DNA of 64,000 nt from Nitrosospira multiformis (GTDB lineage: Bacteria; Pseudomonadota; Gammaproteobacteria; Burkholderiales; Nitrosomonadaceae), in the NCBI RefSeq assembly GCF_003050865.1, contig NZ_QAOK01000012.1:1-64000 (forward strand), in the 5' to 3' direction. Below the pieces are notes generated by a model, which searched no databases, was not told the DNA's origin, and saw only the letters and a list, made by a program, of their open reading frames with translations. Both the position numbers and the translations under genes were made by a program. Positions 12,375-21,596 of this stretch are shown here, piece by piece; within the stretch, counting starts at the first letter, position 1; each line of letters begins with the position of its first letter.

Positions 12375-15300
12375 ATGAAGATATTGCAGGTACGATTCAA
12401 GAATCTGAATTCGCTGGTGGGTGAATGGGAAATCGACCTGACGCACCCGGCCTTTACCTCCGACGGTATTTTTGCCATCGCCGGTCCGACCGGTGCCGGC
12501 AAGACAACCATCCTCGATGCCATTTGCCTCGCTCTCTACGGGCGGACGCCCCGGCTGAGCAAGGTCACCAAAAGCGGAAACGAGATAATGTCTCGTCAGA
12601 TCGGCGAATGCTTTGCTGAAGTGACATTTGAAACTCAGGCCGGTCGTTTCCGTTGCCACTGGAGCCAGCACCGGGCACGTAAAAAACCGGATGGCGAACT
12701 TCAGGCTCCGAAACATGAGATTGCTCATGCCGATTCAGGGGAGATTTTGGAATCCAAGATCAAGGGGGTCGCCGACCAGATCGAGGCGGCTACCGGTATG
12801 GATTTTGACCAATTTACCCGATCCATGTTGCTGGCTCAGGGAGGCTTTGCCGCATTCCTGCAGGCGTTACCTGATGAGCGGGCGCCGATCCTGGAGCAGA
12901 TAACGGGCACGGAGATTTATAGCAAGATATCCATCCGCGTCCATGAGCGCCAGCGTGAAGAGCGGGAAAAACTGAATCTGTTTCAGGCTGAAACAGCCGG
13001 TATCGTGATTCTGGAGCAGGAACAGGAAAAGGATATTCAACAGGAACTCGAGTCAAAACAGAAAGAAGAGTCCGGTCTGACCAGAAAATTAATGGATACG
13101 GATAAAGCCATCACGTGGGTGAAGGCCGTAGATGGACTGAGGAAGGAAATCGACAACCTGACAGCGGAAGCGAGCAAACTGCAAGCCGACATCGGCATTT
13201 TTAAACCAGAGCGTGACAAACTCAGCCGGGCAATTCAGGCAGCGTCACTGGAGGGTTCCTACGCGACGCTGACCGCAATCCGAACACAACATGCGGATGA
13301 GCAGAAGGCACTGAAAACTGAGGAAGCAGCCCTTCCTGAACTGGCATCCTCTGCAAAGGCACAGGCCGAATCCCTGAAATCGACTGAGCAGCAGTCCACC
13401 GGAGCCAAAGCGGAGCTGGAAGTTGCTTTACCGCTCATCAGGAAGGTTCGTTCCCTCGATCAGACGCTTGCCGACCGGAAAAAGGCTATCTCGAAAGATG
13501 AAGACAGCTGCAGAAAGGACGCGATAAAGATCGATGCTGACAAACAGGCCAAGCTGAAAGAACAGGGAAAACGCGCCGATGCTGAAAAGAATCTGAAGGT
13601 TGCTGAAGATTATCTCAAGGAGAACGCTCAGGATGAGTGGCTGATAAGCGGTCTAGCCGGTGTTGAGGAACAACTGGACAATTTGCTCTCCAGGCAGAAG
13701 GAAATAGCTCAAAAAGAGGCCGATAAAGAGAAGGCAGTGACGGCTCTGGAACAGGCAACAAGAAAACTAGCTGCCTGCCGGAGGCAATGCGGGGCTCGGA
13801 AACAGGAGCTGGAGAACACATCAAAGAATCTCCAACAAGGCAAAGATAAATTAAGCCAGTTATTGGGTGACCGGCTGTTGCGTGAATACCGCACAGAAAA
13901 GGAAATCCTGCTTCGAGAAATGGTTCTTCTGAAAAAAATAGCGGAACTTGAAGATCACCGGGCTAAATTGGAAGATGGCAAACCATGCCCGCTTTGTGGC
14001 GCGACAGAGCATCCATTTGCGGAGGGCAACGTTCCCATTCCCGATGAAATCGAACGGAAGATTGAGGCGCTCGACAGACTGATAAGCAAGGCTGAGGATC
14101 ATGAAACCGCCATCAGACATTTTGAGGAAGCCGAAGGCACAGCCCGTAAAAATTTGATGGACGGTGAAAAACAGGAAATAACAGCGATTAATGACAAAAA
14201 AACTGCCGAGCAAGCCCTTGCCGAGCTGCAGGAATATCTGGAAAAACTCCAAACTGATATTACCGCGCTGAAGCAGGCTGTATCAGCCAAACTCCAACCA
14301 CTTGGCATTGCGGAAATTCTGGATTCCAATGTTTTGTCACTGCTGGAATCCCTTCGAGAGCGTGTTAAAGCATGGCAGATACAGGTCAAGAGAAAGACTG
14401 ATATCGAGAAGCAGATTGGAGATTTCGATAGCGAGTTGAAAAGGTTGGACGCAGTCATTGAAACTCAAAGCAATGCATTAAATGAAAAACGGGAATATCT
14501 GGAGTCCCTCAAAAAGGATTACGCCGCTGGATGTAAAGAGCGGAAAGAACTGTACGGTGATAAAGATCCTGATGATGAAGAACGCCGTTTGAACAGGGGT
14601 ATTTCCGTTTCAGAGGAGGTCGAAAGGAAGGCCAGAGTCCTGCATAATGATCTTCAGCAGAAATTGAATGCTGCCAAGACTCAAATTGAAGCTCTGAAAA
14701 AGCGCATTGGTCAAAGAGACCCGGAACTGAAGGAGCTGGAAGCCGAATTTGCAGAAGCATTTGGATTAGCCGGTTTTTCAGATGAAAAACAGTTTCTTGA
14801 AGCCAGACTCACGGTTGGGCAAAGGGATGCGCTATCTGCAAAGGCAAAGAATCTGGACGATCACCAAATAGATCTCAAGGCCAGACAAAAGGATCGAGAA
14901 GCGCGTTTGGACACGGAAGCTGCGAGGAAGATTACCGACAAATCTCTTGAGGAACTGGAACCGCAATTCAAGGATTACGAGGAGTCCCTGAGACAGCTAC
15001 GGGATACTATTACCCGTCTCAAACACAGACTGAGCGAGAATGCTGCTGCCAAAGAACGGCTGGAGGCAAAGCAAGCGGCTATCGAGGCTCAAAAAATAGA
15101 GTGCCGCCGCTGGGAAAATCTGCACGAATTGATTGGCTCAGCAGATGGAAAGAAATACCGGAATTTTGCCCAAGGGCTGACCTTTGAGATGATGATTAGC
15201 CATGCTAACCGGCAACTTCATAAAATGACCGATCGCTATCTGCTGGTTCGCGATGATACTCAGCCCTTGGAACTCAACGTTGTTGACAACTATCAGGCGG

Positions 15301-15641
15301 GTGGGATTCGATCCACGAAAAACCTTTCAGGTGGCGAGAGTTTCATCGTCAGTTTGTCGCTGGCGTTGGGGTTGTCTCACATGGCCAGCAAAAACGTTCG
15401 AGTGGATTCGCTTTTTCTGGATGAAGGCTTCGGCACGTTGGACGAAGAAGCACTGGATACTGCTCTGGAAACTCTTGCGAGCTTGCAGCAGGACGGTAAG
15501 TTGATTGGCGTGATCTCGCATGTCCCAACTCTCAAGGAGCGCATCAGCACACAGATTCTGGTAATTCCTCAAACCGGTGGAAGGAGCGAGATATCTGGAC
15601 CAGGCTGCAGAAGAAACATAACCGGTCAGACTTCTATTTAA
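12375..15641 (+). CDS. sbcC: Exonuclease SbcCD, subunit C (Rad50-like ATPase)
   Basis: A 1088-residue SMC-like protein. Walker A is GPTGAGKTT near residue 38; two long charged coiled coils follow, joined by the zinc-hook CPLCG near residue 538; the C-terminal half ends with the ABC signature NLSGGESF and Walker B SLFLDEGFGTLD near residue 1010. The ATPase controls access of DNA to the SbcD nuclease. Length and layout are typical. A 12-bp palindrome, AACCGTACGGTT, spans the stop codon region at 15640-15651. Confidence 0.96.
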   Translation: MKILQVRFKNLNSLVGEWEIDLTHPAFTSDGIFAIAGPTGAGKTTILDAICLALYGRTPRLSKVTKSGNEIMSRQIGECFAEVTFETQAGRFRCHWSQHRARKKPDGELQAPKHEIAHADSGEILESKIKGVADQIEAATGMDFDQFTRSMLLAQGGFAAFLQALPDERAPILEQITGTEIYSKISIRVHERQREEREKLNLFQAETAGIVILEQEQEKDIQQELESKQKEESGLTRKLMDTDKAITWVKAVDGLRKEIDNLTAEASKLQADIGIFKPERDKLSRAIQAASLEGSYATLTAIRTQHADEQKALKTEEAALPELASSAKAQAESLKSTEQQSTGAKAELEVALPLIRKVRSLDQTLADRKKAISKDEDSCRKDAIKIDADKQAKLKEQGKRADAEKNLKVAEDYLKENAQDEWLISGLAGVEEQLDNLLSRQKEIAQKEADKEKAVTALEQATRKLAACRRQCGARKQELENTSKNLQQGKDKLSQLLGDRLLREYRTEKEILLREMVLLKKIAELEDHRAKLEDGKPCPLCGATEHPFAEGNVPIPDEIERKIEALDRLISKAEDHETAIRHFEEAEGTARKNLMDGEKQEITAINDKKTAEQALAELQEYLEKLQTDITALKQAVSAKLQPLGIAEILDSNVLSLLESLRERVKAWQIQVKRKTDIEKQIGDFDSELKRLDAVIETQSNALNEKREYLESLKKDYAAGCKERKELYGDKDPDDEERRLNRGISVSEEVERKARVLHNDLQQKLNAAKTQIEALKKRIGQRDPELKELEAEFAEAFGLAGFSDEKQFLEARLTVGQRDALSAKAKNLDDHQIDLKARQKDREARLDTEAARKITDKSLEELEPQFKDYEESLRQLRDTITRLKHRLSENAAAKERLEAKQAAIEAQKIECRRWENLHELIGSADGKKYRNFAQGLTFEMMISHANRQLHKMTDRYLLVRDDTQPLELNVVDNYQAGGIRSTKNLSGGESFIVSLSLALGLSHMASKNVRVDSLFLDEGFGTLDEEALDTALETLASLQQDGKLIGVISHVPTLKERISTQILVIPQTGGRSEISGPGCRRNITGQTSI

Positions 15642-16081
15642 CCGTACGGTTTACATATTCCATCATGGCGTTTTGGTGAGCGCGGCTTGGCCTGATAAAT
15701 TTTTGCTTCAGGCTAGTCGTCCCGCCATTGCTTTTCCTTGTGATCGTGTCGAAAATATTTCCAAAAGCAGTTATTCATTCCATGCATATCTTTATAAGGT
15801 GATGAAAATTGGTCATTATTATAATAGGCATAGATTTTGCTTCCTAGAGATTAAGTGAGGAGCTCAAGTTATGCGAAAGCATGGAGGGCGCCGTGAGAAT
15901 TTCGACCTGCGAATTTTATCTTGACAAATAAAGATGGTTATAGTAGTTCGAACATATCCAGTATGTGCTATTGTTTCCTTCGAATTAGGTATACTGTTAT
16001 TTATCAATAAATGGCAAGTTCAGAAATTGATGAGTACAGCATATGGTTCAAACGCACTCTACATACGCGAGAGGCTATATC
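15642..16081. other. A+T-rich intergenic region upstream of the HPr-rel-A-type cassette
   Basis: About 440 bases, clearly more A+T-rich than the flanking genes. A consensus-like -35 element TTGACA lies at 15921-15926, with only poor -10 matches 12 to 17 bases on (TATAGT at 15939-15944). A second TATACT hexamer lies near 15990. A 61-codon frame at 15673-15858 shows no recognisable features. The change in composition at the sbcC boundary suggests the start of an acquired segment. Confidence 0.45.
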
Positions 16082-16525
16082 ATGTCTGAAAAGCAATCAA
16101 ATAAACAAGAATCAGAGCCACTCAGTTTGAAAGAACAAGCTGGCAATTTGCCTGAATCGAGCAGGAGGCGCTTACTCAAGGGTACGGTAGCCATTCCCAT
16201 AATCATGACCCTGCGCAGTGGTGCGGCACTGGCGCGTACGAGCAATCTCGTGGGACCTACTGAAGATATAAATAGCGCACAGAAGGATGAAAATGGGGAT
16301 TTATATTGTGTTCATCCAAGCTCAGAGGCATATACGGGCACTGGTCCTGTTGATCTTGGAGCCAGTCCAACCGCCACCGTCAATCCGATAAACGATGCAA
16401 ATGGCGTTACGGATCTGCAAGCTCAAGCTACAGCATGCCAAAACGGGGGTGGAGTTCTGATATCTGCAACTGCCTGGAGTTCTGTTCTGCCAAAGTTGAG
16501 CAGTATCTCAACCATCACGACGTAA
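16082..16525 (+). CDS. Tat-like signal precursor protein, putative substrate of the adjacent cassette
   Basis: A 147-residue protein from the ATG at 16082, chosen because a GAGAGG ribosome-binding site lies 7 bases upstream; the frame opens 39 bases earlier without one. Residues 27-51 form a signal with consecutive arginines (SSRRRLLKG) followed by a hydrophobic stretch and ALA at about 49-51, like a twin-arginine signal. The mature part is small, Ser/Thr/Ala/Asn-rich, and has two cysteines (in LYCVHP and TACQNG). No enzymatic domain is recognisable. It directly precedes PqqD-like, HPr-kinase-like and nucleotidyltransferase genes, so it is a plausible target of that system. Confidence 0.7.
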   Translation: MSEKQSNKQESEPLSLKEQAGNLPESSRRRLLKGTVAIPIIMTLRSGAALARTSNLVGPTEDINSAQKDENGDLYCVHPSSEAYTGTGPVDLGASPTATVNPINDANGVTDLQAQATACQNGGGVLISATAWSSVLPKLSSISTITT

Positions 16526-16565
16526 ATCGCATTGGTCCGATAGCGGACTCTCCAACACCAAGAGC

Positions 16566-16852
16566 GTGCCTTCAAAAGTTTGCTGGCGGTCGGTCAGCTT
16601 CTCATTCCTGCAGATCCAGGAATGGAATGAGGAATTCACCGTATTCCAACCTGATTCGGGGAAAACCCATTTTCTGAATCGGATGGGAATGCAGATTCTT
16701 TCGACTCTTGACAGTCTCCCGCGTCGGCAAATGATGTCTGCATTCTCCTGGCTGAGCAATTCCAGTTGCCGCAAGACCAGAATTTTTTCCAGCAGATCAT
16801 AAAGACTCTTCATCATCTTGACGAGCTTGGCCTGATTGAGAAGGCAGAATAG
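16566..16852 (+). pseudogene. PqqD-like peptide chaperone (HPr-rel-A type), interrupted by a frameshift
   Basis: Read from the GTG at 16566, the first 51 codons give a PqqD-like N-terminal half (EWNEEFTVFQPDSGKTHFLN, then a short helix ending in TLDSL). At the CCC run 16718-16720 the frame breaks: continuing there gives junk and a stop at 16800. Moving to the -1 frame at the CCC yields PASANDVCILLAEQF and a C-terminal helix ending LDELGLIEKAE with a stop at 16850-16852. Joined, the product is about 95 residues, the usual size for this family. The break is either a real one-base loss, a sequence error, or ribosomal frameshifting. PqqD-like proteins bind peptide substrates for modifying enzymes. 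Confidence 0.75.
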
Positions 16853-16863
16853 GAACCGTCGAT

Positions 16864-17772
16864 GTGATAGTGGGACAGATCCCGTTCAGCGAATTTTTCT
16901 CGTTGCTCTCAAACCAGGGGCTCAGGGTCAAGATGGGTCCCTTCAATGTGCAAATCCGCACAGCGTCTTCAACCCTTGCGGAGCATTTATACAGCCTCTA
17001 TGGGGATTACGAACTGGTGGAGCGTGATCTCGCCGAGTTTCACGTGCAGATTAGTCCAGTACGGCTCATAAAAAAGCCATTCTCTCCCCATGCCCGTTTT
17101 TTTCTTGATGGGCGCTCGTTATCTCCACCGTTTCCCGCGGAGCAAGCACTTGCAGCACTTGAATGGGGCATTAATCTCGCGATTGCGGCAAGGATCAATC
17201 ATTTATTATTATTCCATTCAGCCATAGTCGAGAGAAATGGTTACGCAGTAATACTTCCTGCATGGCCAGGCAGTGGCAAAACCACGTTATGTACAGCCTT
17301 GGTGCATCGGGGATATCGGTTGTTCTCGGATGAATTTGGACTGATGGATCCCGGTCGTGAAATTTTTTTACCTATTCCAAGACTGATGCCACTCAAGAAT
17401 GAGTCTATCCGTGCCATAAGAAATTACCTGCCGGAAGCAACTCTCGGACCTGAAATAAGAAATACGCACAAAGGTACAATTGCGTATGTTCGTCCTCCCA
17501 CTGAAAGTATCGCGCGCTCCGACGAAACTGCAAAGGCAAAGTGGATTATATTCCCCAAATGGATGTCTGATGCCCCGCTCAGATTGGAGACTCTTCCTGA
17601 CTCAGAAGCTTTTCTCCTTTTAGCCAGTAACTCATTCAATTATGAAGTTTTGGGCGATACGAGTTTCCAGGCTGTCACCCGCCTCATAAGAAGCTGCCGC
17701 TGCTATAAACTGATCTATTCGGATTTTGACGCCGCATTAACTGCTATAGATGCGTTGACTGATGACATATAA
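16864..17772 (+). CDS. HPr kinase/phosphorylase-related protein (HprK-related kinase A)
   Basis: A 302-residue protein from a GTG start. The HPr-kinase-like P-loop is PAWPGSGKTTL (residues 132-142), preceded by FHSAIVE (His118) and followed by LFSDEFGLMD near residues 153-162, which matches the acidic motif of HprK-like ATPases. It lacks the N-terminal domain of true HprK and is the size of the HPr-rel-A family, whose members occur beside PqqD-like and nucleotidyltransferase genes. The substrate is not known; related kinases phosphorylate lasso peptides. It starts 11 bases after the PqqD-like stop codon and overlaps the next gene by 11 bases. Confidence 0.85.
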   Translation: MIVGQIPFSEFFSLLSNQGLRVKMGPFNVQIRTASSTLAEHLYSLYGDYELVERDLAEFHVQISPVRLIKKPFSPHARFFLDGRSLSPPFPAEQALAALEWGINLAIAARINHLLLFHSAIVERNGYAVILPAWPGSGKTTLCTALVHRGYRLFSDEFGLMDPGREIFLPIPRLMPLKNESIRAIRNYLPEATLGPEIRNTHKGTIAYVRPPTESIARSDETAKAKWIIFPKWMSDAPLRLETLPDSEAFLLLASNSFNYEVLGDTSFQAVTRLIRSCRCYKLIYSDFDAALTAIDALTDDI

Positions 17773-18859
17773 GCCACCAGCGCACCACTCGCTGTTATTG
17801 AACGCGCTTATTAACCCAGCGTCTCTGGTTGAATATAATGCGACAAAATGGGAGCTATTATTACGATCGGCGAGAAAGGTGAAGCTACTGGGTCGCCTTG
17901 CGATAGAGCTCAAAAATAGAGGGCTTCTGGATCATATTCCATTACGGGCGGCAAATCTACTGCAATCCAGCCTCATTCAGGTAAAGAGACTACAGCAAAT
18001 CACACACTGGGAATTGAACCGGATTTCGTGGGCACTAAAGGATACGGGCGCACCGGTCGTCGCCCTGAAGGGGGTTGCTTATTCTCTTGCTGGAGTGCCT
18101 GAATCAGACGGTCGAATTTATGTTGATCTGGACATCATGGTTCCAAAAGATCGGTTATCAGACGTTGAATCAACACTGACGAAGAAAGGATGGGTGCATC
18201 ATCATAAGCTTTCCGCCTATGATGAACATTACTATCGTGCATGGAGCCATGAAATACCACCCCTGGTTCATTCTGAGCGAGAAACGGAAGTCGATATCCA
18301 TCACACGCTCTCCCCGCCGACAAGCAGGTTGGAAATAAATACCGGTTTGCTATTGAGTGCTGCTGTGGCAGTCGGCAATTCCGGCTACAGGATCCTCTGC
18401 CCGGTCGACATGGTGCTCCACTGCGCTGTTAACTTGTTCCAGAATAATGAGCTGGCAGATGATTTGCGCGATTTACTCGATATTCACGACCTATTGCTGT
18501 TTTTCAGTAAAAATGAAAAGGACTTCTGGAAAAAATTAATAGAACGTGCAAATCAGTTGAGTCTTGGCAGGTCTCTTTTTTATGGGCTGTACTTCAGCCG
18601 TTTCATTTTTCAAACGCCGATTCCTGAAAATTTGGAAAACGATCTGAATGAAAAGCCCAATCCGCTTTCACGAAGGATCATGCATTACCTCGTTCCACAA
18701 GCGTTATTCCCATTGCATCCGGACAAACATTCCAGGCATGCTCTGGTAGCTCGTTCATTGCTGTATCTGCGCAGTCACTGGATACGGATGCCAATTCACC
18801 TTTTAGTCCCGCATCTTGCGTATAAAACTTATTTATCAATATTCCCAGCAAAGCAGTAG
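17762..18859 (+). CDS. Nucleotidyltransferase family protein (PF14907-like)
   Basis: A 365-residue protein with the NTP_transf_5 pattern: ALKGVAYSLAG at residues 101-111, then IYVDLDIMVPKD with the acidic pair Asp122 and Asp124, and the C-terminal LHCAVNLFQN and LDIHDLLLFF helices. The family is predicted to transfer nucleotides but has no proven substrate. The 11-base overlap with the HprK-like gene shows tight coupling. It is the last gene of the cassette; the next feature is the tRNA-Arg gene on the other strand. Confidence 0.82.
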   Translation: MTYKPPAHHSLLLNALINPASLVEYNATKWELLLRSARKVKLLGRLAIELKNRGLLDHIPLRAANLLQSSLIQVKRLQQITHWELNRISWALKDTGAPVVALKGVAYSLAGVPESDGRIYVDLDIMVPKDRLSDVESTLTKKGWVHHHKLSAYDEHYYRAWSHEIPPLVHSERETEVDIHHTLSPPTSRLEINTGLLLSAAVAVGNSGYRILCPVDMVLHCAVNLFQNNELADDLRDLLDIHDLLLFFSKNEKDFWKKLIERANQLSLGRSLFYGLYFSRFIFQTPIPENLENDLNEKPNPLSRRIMHYLVPQALFPLHPDKHSRHALVARSLLYLRSHWIRMPIHLLVPHLAYKTYLSIFPAKQ

Positions 18860-19131
18860 GCGCCTCCGCTGAAAAGTTGATGCCGAACGATGAAACCCGC
18901 GAAGGTGAAATCCGGAGCGTGGAATTAAGCACGAATCGAGCGAACTACTGGACTGTACATTCGTCATTTTCTCAGTAGAGTTCCGCCGATTCGTTCTCAC
19001 CGATATATTTGGAGGTGAGGTAAACCAGATTATAGGAAGCATGCCGCAGCTGAACATTGGTGTTTCTCTGCTCATCTGCTTGACGGCTCTTCAAGGTCTT
19101 ACCGGATTTTTCTATGGGTGAAACAAGAAAA

Positions 19132-19208
19132 TGGCGCGCCCAACACGATTCGAACGTGTGACCCCCGCCTTCGGAGGGCGGTACTCTATCCAGCTGAGCT
19201 ATGGGCGC
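19132..19208 (-). tRNA. tRNA-Arg (CCG)
   Basis: The minus strand folds as a cloverleaf: acceptor arms GCGCCCA/TGGGCGC, D arm with AGCTCAGCTGGATAGAG, anticodon stem CCGCC/GGCGG around CTCCGAA (anticodon CCG, reading CGG), and T loop GTTCGAATC. CCA is encoded at 19132-19134. It lies at the end of the HPr-rel-A cassette, a location common for integration of foreign DNA. Confidence 0.95.
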
Positions 19209-19238
19209 GGATGAAAGGCATTTTTGAATCGGGCGCAT

Positions 19239-19268
19239 AGGATAACGCTTTTTAACCGCTCCGTCCAA
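19239..19268 (-). promoter_or_regulatory. Candidate promoter of tRNA-Arg(CCG)
   Basis: On the minus strand TTGGAC (complement of 19263-19268) and TATCCT (complement of 19239-19244) are separated by 18 bases. The tRNA begins 30 bases further on. Both hexamers match sigma-70 elements moderately well. Confidence 0.5.
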
Positions 19269-19309
19269 CCTGAATAAAACCGCTTTTGCTTGAATACGTG
19301 AATCTATAC

Positions 19310-19332
19310 AATAAACGTTTTTAACGTTTATT
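19310..19332. repeat. Perfect inverted repeat before the cytochrome c gene
   Basis: AATAAACGTT (19310-19319) and AACGTTTATT (19323-19332) are exact reverse complements around a TTT spacer. The repeat ends 14 bases before the GTG start and abuts the GGGGAG ribosome-binding site, so it could be an operator or an mRNA hairpin acting on translation. Confidence 0.6.
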
Positions 19333-19346
19333 ACTGGGGAGTTATT

Positions 19347-19901
19347 GTGAGCGACGTTGAAGATGAAGGACATTCCACGCCTATCCAGACACCGGGCCAG
19401 TTGATTGTTGTCGTCCTGGCCGCTTTCATAGTTCCAGTCGTTGTTTTATCACTCATCGGACGATTTGCCGTTGAAAGCTCGGTGGATCCAAACAGTCCTG
19501 CTTTTTCGGAAGAAGCCGTAGCGAAGCGTCTTCATCCGGTGGGCAAGCTGGTGATTGCAGGCGATTCCACCCAACCCCAGGCGCAAGCAGGGGAAGGCGC
19601 AGTCTTGGCTGCGACCGCTCCGGCAACCGCCAGCGCCGCTCCTGCGGCGGAAGGCCCGGCGGAAAAAGCCAAGACAATTTACACCGCTAGTTGCGCCGCC
19701 TGTCACGCCACCGGCGCCGCCGGTGCCCCCAAAGTGGGAGACAATGCAGCATGGGCGCCCCGCATCAAGACAGGCACGGAGACGCTTTATACCAGCGCAT
19801 TGAAAGGCAAGAATGCCATGCCGCCCAAAGGTGGAAACGCGGGACTGTCTGATGACGACGTCAAAGCCGTGGTCGACTACATGGTCAGCCAGTCCAAATG
19901 A
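19347..19901 (+). CDS. Membrane-anchored c-type cytochrome (cytochrome c5-like)
   Basis: The 184-residue protein starts with GTG behind a GGGGAG ribosome-binding site. One N-terminal transmembrane helix lies at about residues 18-38, then an Ala/Pro-rich linker (about 85-105), then a class I cytochrome domain with CAACH at residues 116-120 and the axial Met158 in AMPPKGG. It is likely held in the inner membrane with its heme in the periplasm, carrying electrons between respiratory complexes. A strong terminator follows. Confidence 0.9.
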   Translation: MSDVEDEGHSTPIQTPGQLIVVVLAAFIVPVVVLSLIGRFAVESSVDPNSPAFSEEAVAKRLHPVGKLVIAGDSTQPQAQAGEGAVLAATAPATASAAPAAEGPAEKAKTIYTASCAACHATGAAGAPKVGDNAAWAPRIKTGTETLYTSALKGKNAMPPKGGNAGLSDDDVKAVVDYMVSQSK

Positions 19902-19936
19902 CCTGCTGAGAAGTTGAAGGTGGAGCGGGATGCGGC

Positions 19937-19972
19937 GGGCGATAGGGAGAATTTCATATCGCCCTTGTTTTT
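19937..19972 (+). terminator. Rho-independent terminator after the cytochrome c gene
   Basis: GGGCGATA (19937-19944) pairs with TATCGCCC (19957-19964) across a 12-base loop and is followed by TTGTTTTTC. Confidence 0.8.
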
Positions 19973-20032
19973 CTCAAGGTAACTCAGTTTATTTCGTTGC
20001 CTTCAGCCTGTTGGCAATCGTCTTTCCATCTC

Positions 20033-20860
20033 ATGGCCATTTACGCAATCGGTGACTTGCAAGGTTGCTATCGGGAATTCCGGGAACTCCTCGACCTGGT
20101 CCGTTTCGACGAAACGAAAGACAAGCTGTGGCTGGTGGGAGACCTGGTCAACCGCGGTCCGGACTCGCTCTCGGTATTGCGCTTCATAAAAGAGCTGAAC
20201 GATTCCGCAATAATGGTACTGGGCAATCATGATCTGCATCTGCTCATGGTTGCGGAAGGGTGCGCGGAGCTAAACCGAAGCGATACCTTGCAGAACATCC
20301 TCGATGCACCCGATCGGGATGAACTGCTCGATTGGCTGCGGCAACAGAAGCTGTTGCATGTGGACGGAAACTACGTCATGGTGCACGCTGGCCTGTTGCC
20401 TTCCTGGAGTGTCGAACAGGCGCAAGCGCTTGCTGCGCTGGTAGAGAGCGCCTTACGGGGAAGCGAATTCCATGAATTTTGCCGTCAGATGTACGGGAAC
20501 CGGCCGGATCATTGGAATGAAACCCTCAACGGGTATGAACGGCTGCGTGTAATCGTCAATGCCATGACACGCATGCGAGTCTGTACTCCCCATGGAAGAA
20601 TGGATTTTGCCCATAAGGGTTCGGTCAAGGACATTCCTCCCGGCTATTTGCCCTGGTTCGATGCCCCGGAGCGAGCCAGCCGGAAGGCAACCGTCATCTG
20701 CGGTCACTGGTCAGCACTGGGTCTTGAGATCAGGAGCAATCTGATGGCCCTCGATACCGGGTGCTTATGGGGAGGCAGCCTTACGGCTGTTCGTCTAGAG
20801 GATCGGAAGGTTTTCCAGACGGCTTGTGGGGCAGGGGGAGCGACAAGGCGTTGGCAATAG
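20033..20860 (+). CDS. apaH: Bis(5'-nucleosyl)-tetraphosphatase, symmetrical
   Basis: From the ATG at 20033 the protein has 275 residues and begins MAIYAIGDLQGCYREF; the open frame upstream to 19997 adds no homology. Motifs of the metallophosphatase are GDLQGCY, GDLVNRGPDS and GNHDLHLL, with a later GHWSALG. It splits Ap4A into two ADP. The 3' end overlaps the convergent acyltransferase gene by 80 bases. Confidence 0.94.
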   Translation: MAIYAIGDLQGCYREFRELLDLVRFDETKDKLWLVGDLVNRGPDSLSVLRFIKELNDSAIMVLGNHDLHLLMVAEGCAELNRSDTLQNILDAPDRDELLDWLRQQKLLHVDGNYVMVHAGLLPSWSVEQAQALAALVESALRGSEFHEFCRQMYGNRPDHWNETLNGYERLRVIVNAMTRMRVCTPHGRMDFAHKGSVKDIPPGYLPWFDAPERASRKATVICGHWSALGLEIRSNLMALDTGCLWGGSLTAVRLEDRKVFQTACGAGGATRRWQ

Positions 20861-21596
20861 CGTGCTCCGCGCTTCGTGCAAGCTCGCGGCGATTTTTCCC
20901 ATGACTATCGATCGCCTCCGTAAAGACGAGTTCGACATCGATGTGCGGCTGACTCAATACTTGCCTTACCGATTCAAGTAATGAAATACGAAAGTATGCC
21001 GCAGCCTTGCTGATGTTACCGGCCATGTCGGTATAGCGGATTGCCACCGGATGCAGCATCGCCGACACGCTCACCGCAGGTTGCAGCAACGAGGCATGGA
21101 AATGATGGAGTATGGTGCCGTCGCTGGTGCCACCCTCAGGAAATACCGCTACCCGATCGCCATTGTTGAGCGCCTCTGCAATGTGGTCGTTTATTCTGGC
21201 CGTGTCTCTGCGCTTCGTGCGCTCGATGAACAAGGTACCCACATTATTGCTCAGCCAACCAAACAGGGGCCAGCCCCGGATTTCAGATTTTGCGACAAAC
21301 CGGGCCGGGCATACGCTGATAATCGAATACACATCCAGCCAGGATACATGATTGGCCGCCAGCATTACGCGCTGTGTTTCCGCGACAGGCAATATGCCTT
21401 GATGGCGCACTCTGACTCCCAGAATTGAAAGAAGCCGCGCTGACCATTTTTGCGCCATGCATCTCTGGGTCCTTTGACCGACATGCGGATAGATCGCGGA
21501 TTGAATCAATCCGGAAGCGATGTGAAGCAGAAGGCGAATCCAGCGTACTGCTCTTGTCAGCTGGCTGGCGGTGAGACTGGTTGTAACGTTGGGCAT
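20781..21596 (-). CDS. Lysophospholipid (1-acylglycerol-3-phosphate) acyltransferase
   Basis: A 271-residue PlsC-family protein. The catalytic H-x4-D motif is NHVSWLD (His83, Asp88), the substrate-binding region includes KSEIRGWPLFG, and VFPEGGTSDG (about residues 151-160) is the third block. An N-terminal amphipathic or membrane helix is at about 15-35. It makes phosphatidic acid from lysophosphatidic acid at the inner membrane. It is the last gene in the minus-strand run starting at gcvT, but 84 bases separate it from the preceding lipoprotein gene, so it may be independent. Confidence 0.88.
   Translation of the reverse strand: MPNVTTSLTASQLTRAVRWIRLLLHIASGLIQSAIYPHVGQRTQRCMAQKWSARLLSILGVRVRHQGILPVAETQRVMLAANHVSWLDVYSIISVCPARFVAKSEIRGWPLFGWLSNNVGTLFIERTKRRDTARINDHIAEALNNGDRVAVFPEGGTSDGTILHHFHASLLQPAVSVSAMLHPVAIRYTDMAGNISKAAAYFRISLLESVRQVLSQPHIDVELVFTEAIDSHGKNRRELARSAEHAIANALSLPLPHKPSGKPSDPLDEQP

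Follow-up and report, generated by a model that had tools for sequence, protein, structure and literature searches.

A recurrent four-gene cassette in Nitrosospira multiformis with a Tat-like precursor as candidate substrate of an HprK-related kinase

Results

The first 64,000 nucleotides of Nitrosospira multiformis contig NZ_QAOK01000012.1 (assembly GCF_003050865.1; this whole stretch is called the window below) contain, at positions 16082-18859, a tightly spaced cassette of four genes on one strand (+). They encode a 147-residue precursor protein with a leader resembling signals of the twin-arginine translocation (Tat) pathway, a PqqD-like protein, an HprK-related kinase and a nucleotidyltransferase. 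The cassette is a recurrent unit beyond chance: its four-gene order was confirmed in 67 of the 75 named loci with room for it (the best 80 of 457 kinase relatives, 75 of which extend 1100 bases or more to either side). Genomic evidence lends good support to the view that the precursor serves as substrate for a dedicated modification system. We consider it probable that the four genes form a protein-modification system in which the PqqD-like protein would present the precursor, the kinase phosphorylate a serine, the nucleotidyltransferase elaborate it and the Tat pathway export the product. The features are as follows.

16082-16525, + strand: precursor, the putative substrate, 147 amino acids, with a Tat-like leader (R28-R29 to A51) and a mature part of about 96 residues; open reading frame (ORF) and 27-row alignment A3
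16163-16234, + strand: leader core from R28 to A51 (RRRLLKG...IPIIMTLRSGAALA), the region common to the precursor classes; leader profile searches
16241-16243, + strand: Ser54, at +3 from the predicted AxA cleavage site, favoured candidate phosphorylation site; serine conserved in 49 of 50 SG-type precursors, at the place of Ser3 in the linear polyphosphorylated peptides (LPP) compared below
16481-16483, + strand: Ser134, second candidate site, within a conserved C-terminal motif that 49 of 50 SG-type precursors and 2 of 54 of the other leader group carry
16566-16852, + strand: PqqD-like gene, its product a putative recognition element (RRE) of ribosomally synthesized and post-translationally modified peptides (RiPPs), interrupted by the loss of one base near 16.71 kb; two pieces against TIGR04353 and alignment with intact relatives
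16864-17772, + strand: HprK-related kinase A (TIGR04352), 302 amino acids; TIGR04352 score and residues H118, P135-G136, G138-K139 and S155-D156-E157 invariant in alignment A1
17762-18859, + strand: nucleotidyltransferase (PF14907), 365 amino acids, with invariant D122-x-D124 and D178; PF14907 score, 39-row alignment A4, structure model and nearest solved folds

Genes of the cassette

An earlier note on this DNA had described a precursor with an SSRRRLLKG signal and two mature-part cysteines next to three further genes, all in one direction, tightly spaced and with an overlap. We recovered this arrangement; the cysteines are C76 and C119 of the 16082-16525 product, and the overlap amounts to 11 bases between the kinase and nucleotidyltransferase genes. 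The proposed HPr-kinase-related ATPase matches TIGR04352 over profile positions 2-280 of 280 with 336.4 bits (cut-off 200), and no other P-loop family fits it better, the next being ScmC with only 18.8 bits (cut-off 125). Its closest named relatives among the matches listed, from which the window's own or very near genomes were possibly omitted, belong to Nitrosomonas. Likewise, the last gene is a PF14907-like nucleotidyltransferase as the note had it (170.3 bits, gathering threshold 31.2). The claim of a PqqD-like chaperone gene holds in part. Scored separately against TIGR04353 (cut-off 35 bits), the piece starting at 16566 reaches 34.4 bits over profile positions 1-34 and the piece ending at 16852 reaches 20.1 bits over positions 39-74, so the resemblance stands, but the two pieces lie in different frames and there is no single open frame.

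Residues H118, K139 of the P-loop, D156 and E157 are invariant in the 15 kinases of alignment A1, and H118, K139 and D156-E157 align, weakly (E 0.044), with the His, P-loop and Asp-Asp of solved HprK. In the nucleotidyltransferase, D122, D124 and D178 are invariant across 39 sequences and are, as we assume from the fold, the catalytic triad. Its model (predicted local distance difference test, pLDDT, 94.2) has JHP933 (E 8e-4), TM1012 and ANT(2'')-Ia as nearest solved folds, and a sequence search against PDB chains gave nothing useful. Judged from these alignments, the predicted catalytic residues of both enzymes are intact. Ratios of nonsynonymous to synonymous substitution rates against the closest relative were 0.32 for the precursor, 0.19 for the kinase and 0.17 for the nucleotidyltransferase (the last from one relative), and all three genes look to be under purifying selection.

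The window precursor has no Pfam family at E 1, and the only NCBIfam match is formate_TAT with 12.8 bits (cut-off 48.45); none of nine precursors scanned exceeded a cut-off in either collection. Its structure model has a mean pLDDT of 72.5, with most of the confidence in the mature part, where blocks from residue 61 onward score 75-92; no solved PDB fold matched it (best E 0.47). In the 27 type-B precursor rows of A3 the residues R28, R29, P39, T43, L44, S46, A49, A51, S54, N55, C76, D91, G93, C119 and S134 are invariant.

Recurrence of the four-gene order

At the 75 named loci, a leader-bearing precursor gene lies upstream of the kinase in 68, a PqqD gene is present in 73 and a nucleotidyltransferase gene follows downstream in 74. 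Absence of the precursor from other cassettes was what the earlier note thought would speak against it; instead, such a precursor also stands upstream in 27 of 28 class-level and 22 of 23 family-level loci. All four genes occur in 25 of 28 and 22 of 23 of these loci with room, counts that are partly circular since the class and family loci supplied the leader seeds. When the 14 Nitrosomonas loci, which partly duplicate family-level ones, are removed from the named set (L074-L139 remain), 53 of 61 still carry all four. Among the exceptions, the leader of the L120 precursor is divergent, that of L122 scores just under the threshold, in L091 and L133 the leader match lies downstream of the kinase, and L103 shows a nucleotidyltransferase signal on the opposite strand only.

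The surroundings of the cassette vary. Judged by the 25 commonest of 132 families, none accounts for over 6 of the 125 flanking ORFs from 36 loci. Some cassettes (within L060-L139) lie near polysaccharide genes, including glycosyltransferases; counted over the 125 ORFs and with no control set, each such family has 2-3 members (Bac_transf 3, VanZ 3, Poly_export 2).

A leader almost confined to kinase loci

The leader displays Tat-like features, namely RRxLLK, a hydrophobic stretch and AxA, and TatC was found in 40 of 41 cassette genomes. Two leader profiles were used: a first model, seeded with 20 precursors from the window and L001-L059 and run over all loci, and a separate profile, A2, run on the window's own genome and 339 class genomes. 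In the own genome, A2 recognizes a single site, the window precursor gene. In the class sample it finds 39 sites in 35 of the 339 genomes, and 37 of these sites lie within 3 kb of an HprK-related kinase (31 over the cut-off, 6 a weaker HprK relative). The other two lie elsewhere, though their genomes also hold such a kinase.

We considered that the first gene might encode a generic Tat substrate merely adjoining the cassette. This was rejected, as the leader is almost confined to kinase loci and none of 24 control Tat-type ORFs from 30 loci of relatives exceeded 10.7 bits under the first leader model; these controls were chosen by a motif rule, several are mutually homologous and at least two (L183, L201) are not Tat-like.

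Conserved serines in dissimilar mature parts

At 90% similarity, the 125 leader-bearing precursors reduce to 108, of which 50 have an SG-type leader end (RSGAALA) and 58 do not. Behind the leader they share very little. BLASTP of 107 mature parts found no pair between classes at E 1e-3 except 17, all involving L016, a type-B protein mislabelled by the class pattern; within class C/D, just 5 pairs are similar. Mature parts range from about a dozen to more than 200 residues. The lower end is represented by L053 (787-1011), a precursor of 74 residues with very little sequence between its N-terminal serine and its C-terminal motif; its sequence makes it a candidate for a minimal substrate.

Despite this variability, 49 of 50 SG-type precursors, and 28 of 28 outside Nitrosomonadaceae, have a serine 7-8 residues past the S of SG (+2/+3 relative to the predicted AxA), against a background of 52 in 543 residue pairs. 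In the single exception, L006, the same TSN is present but follows a short insertion. The +3 position depends on the choice of cleavage site and was anchored on the SG motif, because taking the earliest AxA spread the serine out, mostly across +5 to +7. Two further patterns were chosen by eye after viewing the sequences, and their statistics are therefore descriptive: [ACGS][AFYWSCLGI]xS[LIFVMC] within the last 30 residues, rewritten once before counting, occurs in 49 of the 50 SG-type precursors (10.8 on average and 21 at most after shuffling) and in 2 of 54 of the other leader group (shuffled mean 3.1), and SxNxS early in the mature part occurs in 43 of 54 of that non-SG group (shuffled mean 1.5, maximum 6; L040, L055, L090 and L128 are omitted from the 54). 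Since mature parts are not similar between classes, general similarity does not account for the serines they share.

Kinase lineages follow precursor classes

On a tree of 94 kinases, the three precursor classes require 2 changes, which is the minimum, whereas shuffled labels require 35.6 on average. The split of class A from the rest has an approximate likelihood ratio (SH-aLRT) support of 100, while 45 of 91 inner branches fall below 80. The class labels came from precursor patterns alone, with L040, L055 and L090 set by hand and 7 uncertain rows put in class A, and the tree omits 14 rows (13 from Nitrosomonadaceae; L016 is among the 14). As relatives inherit both genes by descent, the tree indicates stable pairing and does not prove coevolution.

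Gain and loss of the module

Next to the cassette lies the C-terminal part of sbcC (window 14901-15638). Of 23 same-genus genomes, the own one included, just 6 were found to hold it; three of the six have the cassette and three lack it. A full-length kinase is present in three of the 23 genomes and a fragment at a contig end in one. In L215, which lacks the cassette, the matches to window positions 14901-15725 and 19090-20900 are separated by 38 bases; in L216, also without it, 63 bases lie between the end of one match at 15715 and the start of the next at 19108. In the third such genome, L217, the right flank is unmatched within the stretch examined. What is absent from L215 and L216 comprises the four genes with their margins, beside tRNA-Arg(CCG). 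The four genes are thus present or absent as one unit:

15726-19089, no strand assigned: gain/loss unit holding all four genes, its edges taken from L215; absent between sbcC and tRNA-Arg(CCG) in two genomes of the same genus

In L178 (genome G046) the left module edge is about 650 bases longer than in the window.

A sister group was seen at L170 (G384), L171 (G417), L173 (G200) and L174 (G283), where HprK relatives below the TIGR04352 cut-off lie beside short precursors. These are ORFs of 57-87 residues, up to three per locus, with the leader SRRxFxKKxxYxAPVVLTL or near and GS shortly past the signal, and no nucleotidyltransferase match was found in the four stretches. A secreted-looking protein adjoins the short-precursor locus of L173 (543-1043); its C-terminus resembles what we take to be a PEP-CTERM sorting signal.

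Comparison with known systems

The closest parallel is LPP of Bacillota, which comprises an RRE, an HprK-like kinase, an NTP transferase, a SipW-like peptidase and an MsbA-like exporter (LppA/B/K/N/S/D; PMC13381572). LppK polyphosphorylates core Ser3 in AQSNWK, and S3A abolishes this (PMC13381572). Several traits are common to LPP and our cassette. Both combine RRE, HprK-like kinase and nucleotidyltransferase (the 75 loci with PqqD in 73 and nucleotidyltransferase in 74 were found through the kinase), both have precursors with a conserved N-terminal leader and a highly variable C-terminal part, and both are patchily distributed (PMC13381572). The conserved serine lies 3 residues past leader cleavage with an adjoining Asn, the window precursor reading R-T-S-N after the predicted cleavage, and a few copies lie near polysaccharide genes, as LPP loci do (PMC13381572).

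A plain LPP assignment was nevertheless rejected. The cassette leader is Tat-like, not YxxPxVLxHQxIxFETxxS (PMC13381572): in the 108 precursors, YxxPx[LVIAFY] and FETxxS occur 0 times each and [YW]xxP in 5. Neither a SipW-like peptidase nor an MsbA-like exporter was seen between sbcC and the cytochrome gene (ORF list, selected genes scanned) or among the 25 commonest flank families. The cassette's cargo extends from about a dozen to more than 200 residues, and the best 80 of 457 named relatives are mainly from Pseudomonadota; LPP and paeninodins are described as restricted to Bacillota (PMC13381572). Because the enzyme trio and the serine position are shared but leader, peptidase and exporter are not, we call the cassette a Tat-type analogue of LPP.

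Phosphorylated lasso peptides (paeninodin with PadeK, ThcoK, SyanK; pseudomycoidin with PsmK/PsmN) likewise use an HprK-like kinase and an RRE, the B1 protein (PMC9266682; PMC13381572), and in some a nucleotidyltransferase acts on the serine phosphate. PsmK phosphorylates a serine of pseudomycoidin and PsmN is needed for hexoses on that phosphoserine; the lasso kinases carry a His-Lys-Asp-Asp motif and phosphorylate a C-terminal Ser (PMC9266682). A lasso cluster was rejected, since no macrolactam cyclase or B2 protease occurs beside the window cassette (ORF list) or among the 25 commonest flank families.

With the HPr-rel-A system (TIGR04352, TIGR04353) the relation is direct: the kinase belongs fully to TIGR04352, each PqqD piece matches its own part of TIGR04353, and the family descriptions name the kinase and a PqqD 'peptide chaperone' and no substrate. 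The SynChlorMet cassette (ScmC/ScmD) also brings HprK-like and PqqD-like proteins together, with weak matches. It contains radical SAM enzymes. The window differs from it in the low ScmC score and in having no apparent radical SAM gene from sbcC to the cytochrome gene (ORF list, selected genes scanned). In open-licence literature, including that on HPr-rel-A, TIGR04352, TIGR04353 and PF14907, we recognized no description of this cassette; on Tat combined with RiPP phosphorylation it yielded only works unrelated by title and abstract opening. Term searches in PMC12710340 and PMC7470986 found neither HPr nor kinase.

Discussion

The earlier note's central idea, a peptide modification system acting on the precursor, gains support from gene order, leader specificity, agreement of kinase tree with precursor class and the LPP precedent; the modification itself we infer. 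The first gene's product would be the substrate, a secreted protein whose Tat-like signal doubles as leader. The PqqD-like protein, as an RRE, would bind this leader and present the precursor to the HprK-related kinase, which would phosphorylate the conserved serine just past the leader (Ser54, +3 from the predicted cleavage). The nucleotidyltransferase could then elaborate the phosphate by adding a nucleotidyl or sugar group. The modified precursor would finally leave through the general Tat system and be cut by ordinary signal peptidase, so that a dedicated exporter or protease would be unneeded.

Several observations weigh against this reading or parts of it. At E 0.05 the window gene is absent from the hits of the generic Tat model TIGR01409, and the Tat assignment therefore rests on motif resemblance. 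Of the 41 over-cut-off kinases in a sample of 369 genomes, 10 have no A2 leader match, a number that is approximate since the kinase and leader surveys used different class samples (369 and 339 genomes). Six of these ten (L036, L044, L048, L050, L052, L058) are matched by the first leader model, and in G206 (locus L039), which is in the leader sample, inspection by eye shows a precursor whose leader is degenerate. At three of the 75 named loci (L092, L098, L106) no precursor was seen; L098 (8001-8921) has kinase and nucleotidyltransferase with neither PqqD nor leader precursor in the 8 kb upstream. The second Asp of HprK is replaced by Glu157 in all 15 kinases. Deletion of lppN, encoding the NTP transferase of LPP, caused no visible change (PMC13381572), so the role we give the nucleotidyltransferase is a tentative one. 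The two serine patterns were, as said, picked by eye. Finally, alignment with two same-genus relatives, in which the PqqD-like gene is open across 95 and 100 codons, places a one-base deletion near 16.71 kb of the window gene. The sequence fits a genuine mutation and an assembly error alike; unless it is an assembly error, the system may be inactive in this strain.

The site of modification is ambiguous, because in the SG group the C-terminal serine is conserved as well as Ser54. The kinase might target the Ser134 motif, as in phosphorylated lasso peptides, with the N-terminal serine serving just signal cleavage or recognition. The near-complete retention of that motif in SG-type precursors and the invariance of S134 in the 27 type-B rows fit such a target, and C-terminal Ser is what the lasso kinases modify (PMC9266682). 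We still regard it as unlikely: in the other leader group the motif occurs below the shuffled mean despite the same kinase family, and the nearest characterized linear system uses Ser3 (PMC13381572). Less likely again, phosphorylation or nucleotidylation might be activation only, the serine being converted to dehydroalanine or joined to cysteine or a cell-surface sugar, with no free phosphate finally. Here one can point to the first cysteine lying 1-5 residues past the conserved serine in 19 of 20 SG-type class C/D precursors (the mislabelled L016 included) and to the few flanks with polysaccharide genes. In class B, however, to which the window precursor belongs, the first cysteine is 18-30 residues off; no lyase, cyclase or ligase family is among those found in at least 3 of the 125 flanking ORFs, and the cysteines may simply form a disulfide.

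The remaining alternative, that the exported protein carries a small molecule or cofactor produced by the two enzymes, kinase and nucleotidyltransferase, and is not covalently modified by them, appears to us the most improbable of these. Gene co-occurrence alone would fit it, as would the predicted fold of the window's mature domain. Yet what the precursors share is the leader and the serine motifs, and their mature parts, dissimilar between classes and down to about a dozen residues in L053, leave little to bind a common cofactor. Direct modification of the serine near the leader remains the reading we prefer.

More tentatively, and with rather more doubt than belief, we suggest a Gram-negative machine that labels first and exports afterwards. 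The PqqD-like protein would act both as RRE and as Tat proofreading chaperone, holding the signal until kinase and nucleotidyltransferase have attached a phosphate-linked group to the serine near the new N-terminus, and releasing the precursor to Tat afterwards; the leader would be an exchangeable tag on unrelated-looking cargoes, each class with its own kinase lineage.

A specific substrate is thereby proposed for a kinase family whose models list none, together with the residues to test. If the reading is true, RRE-guided serine phosphorylation reaches past lasso peptides and LPP of Bacillota into many Pseudomonadota, and enzymatic tagging is coupled to a Tat-type signal. As the leader alone locates the system in genomes, it could yield a list of many unannotated secreted proteins in one search.

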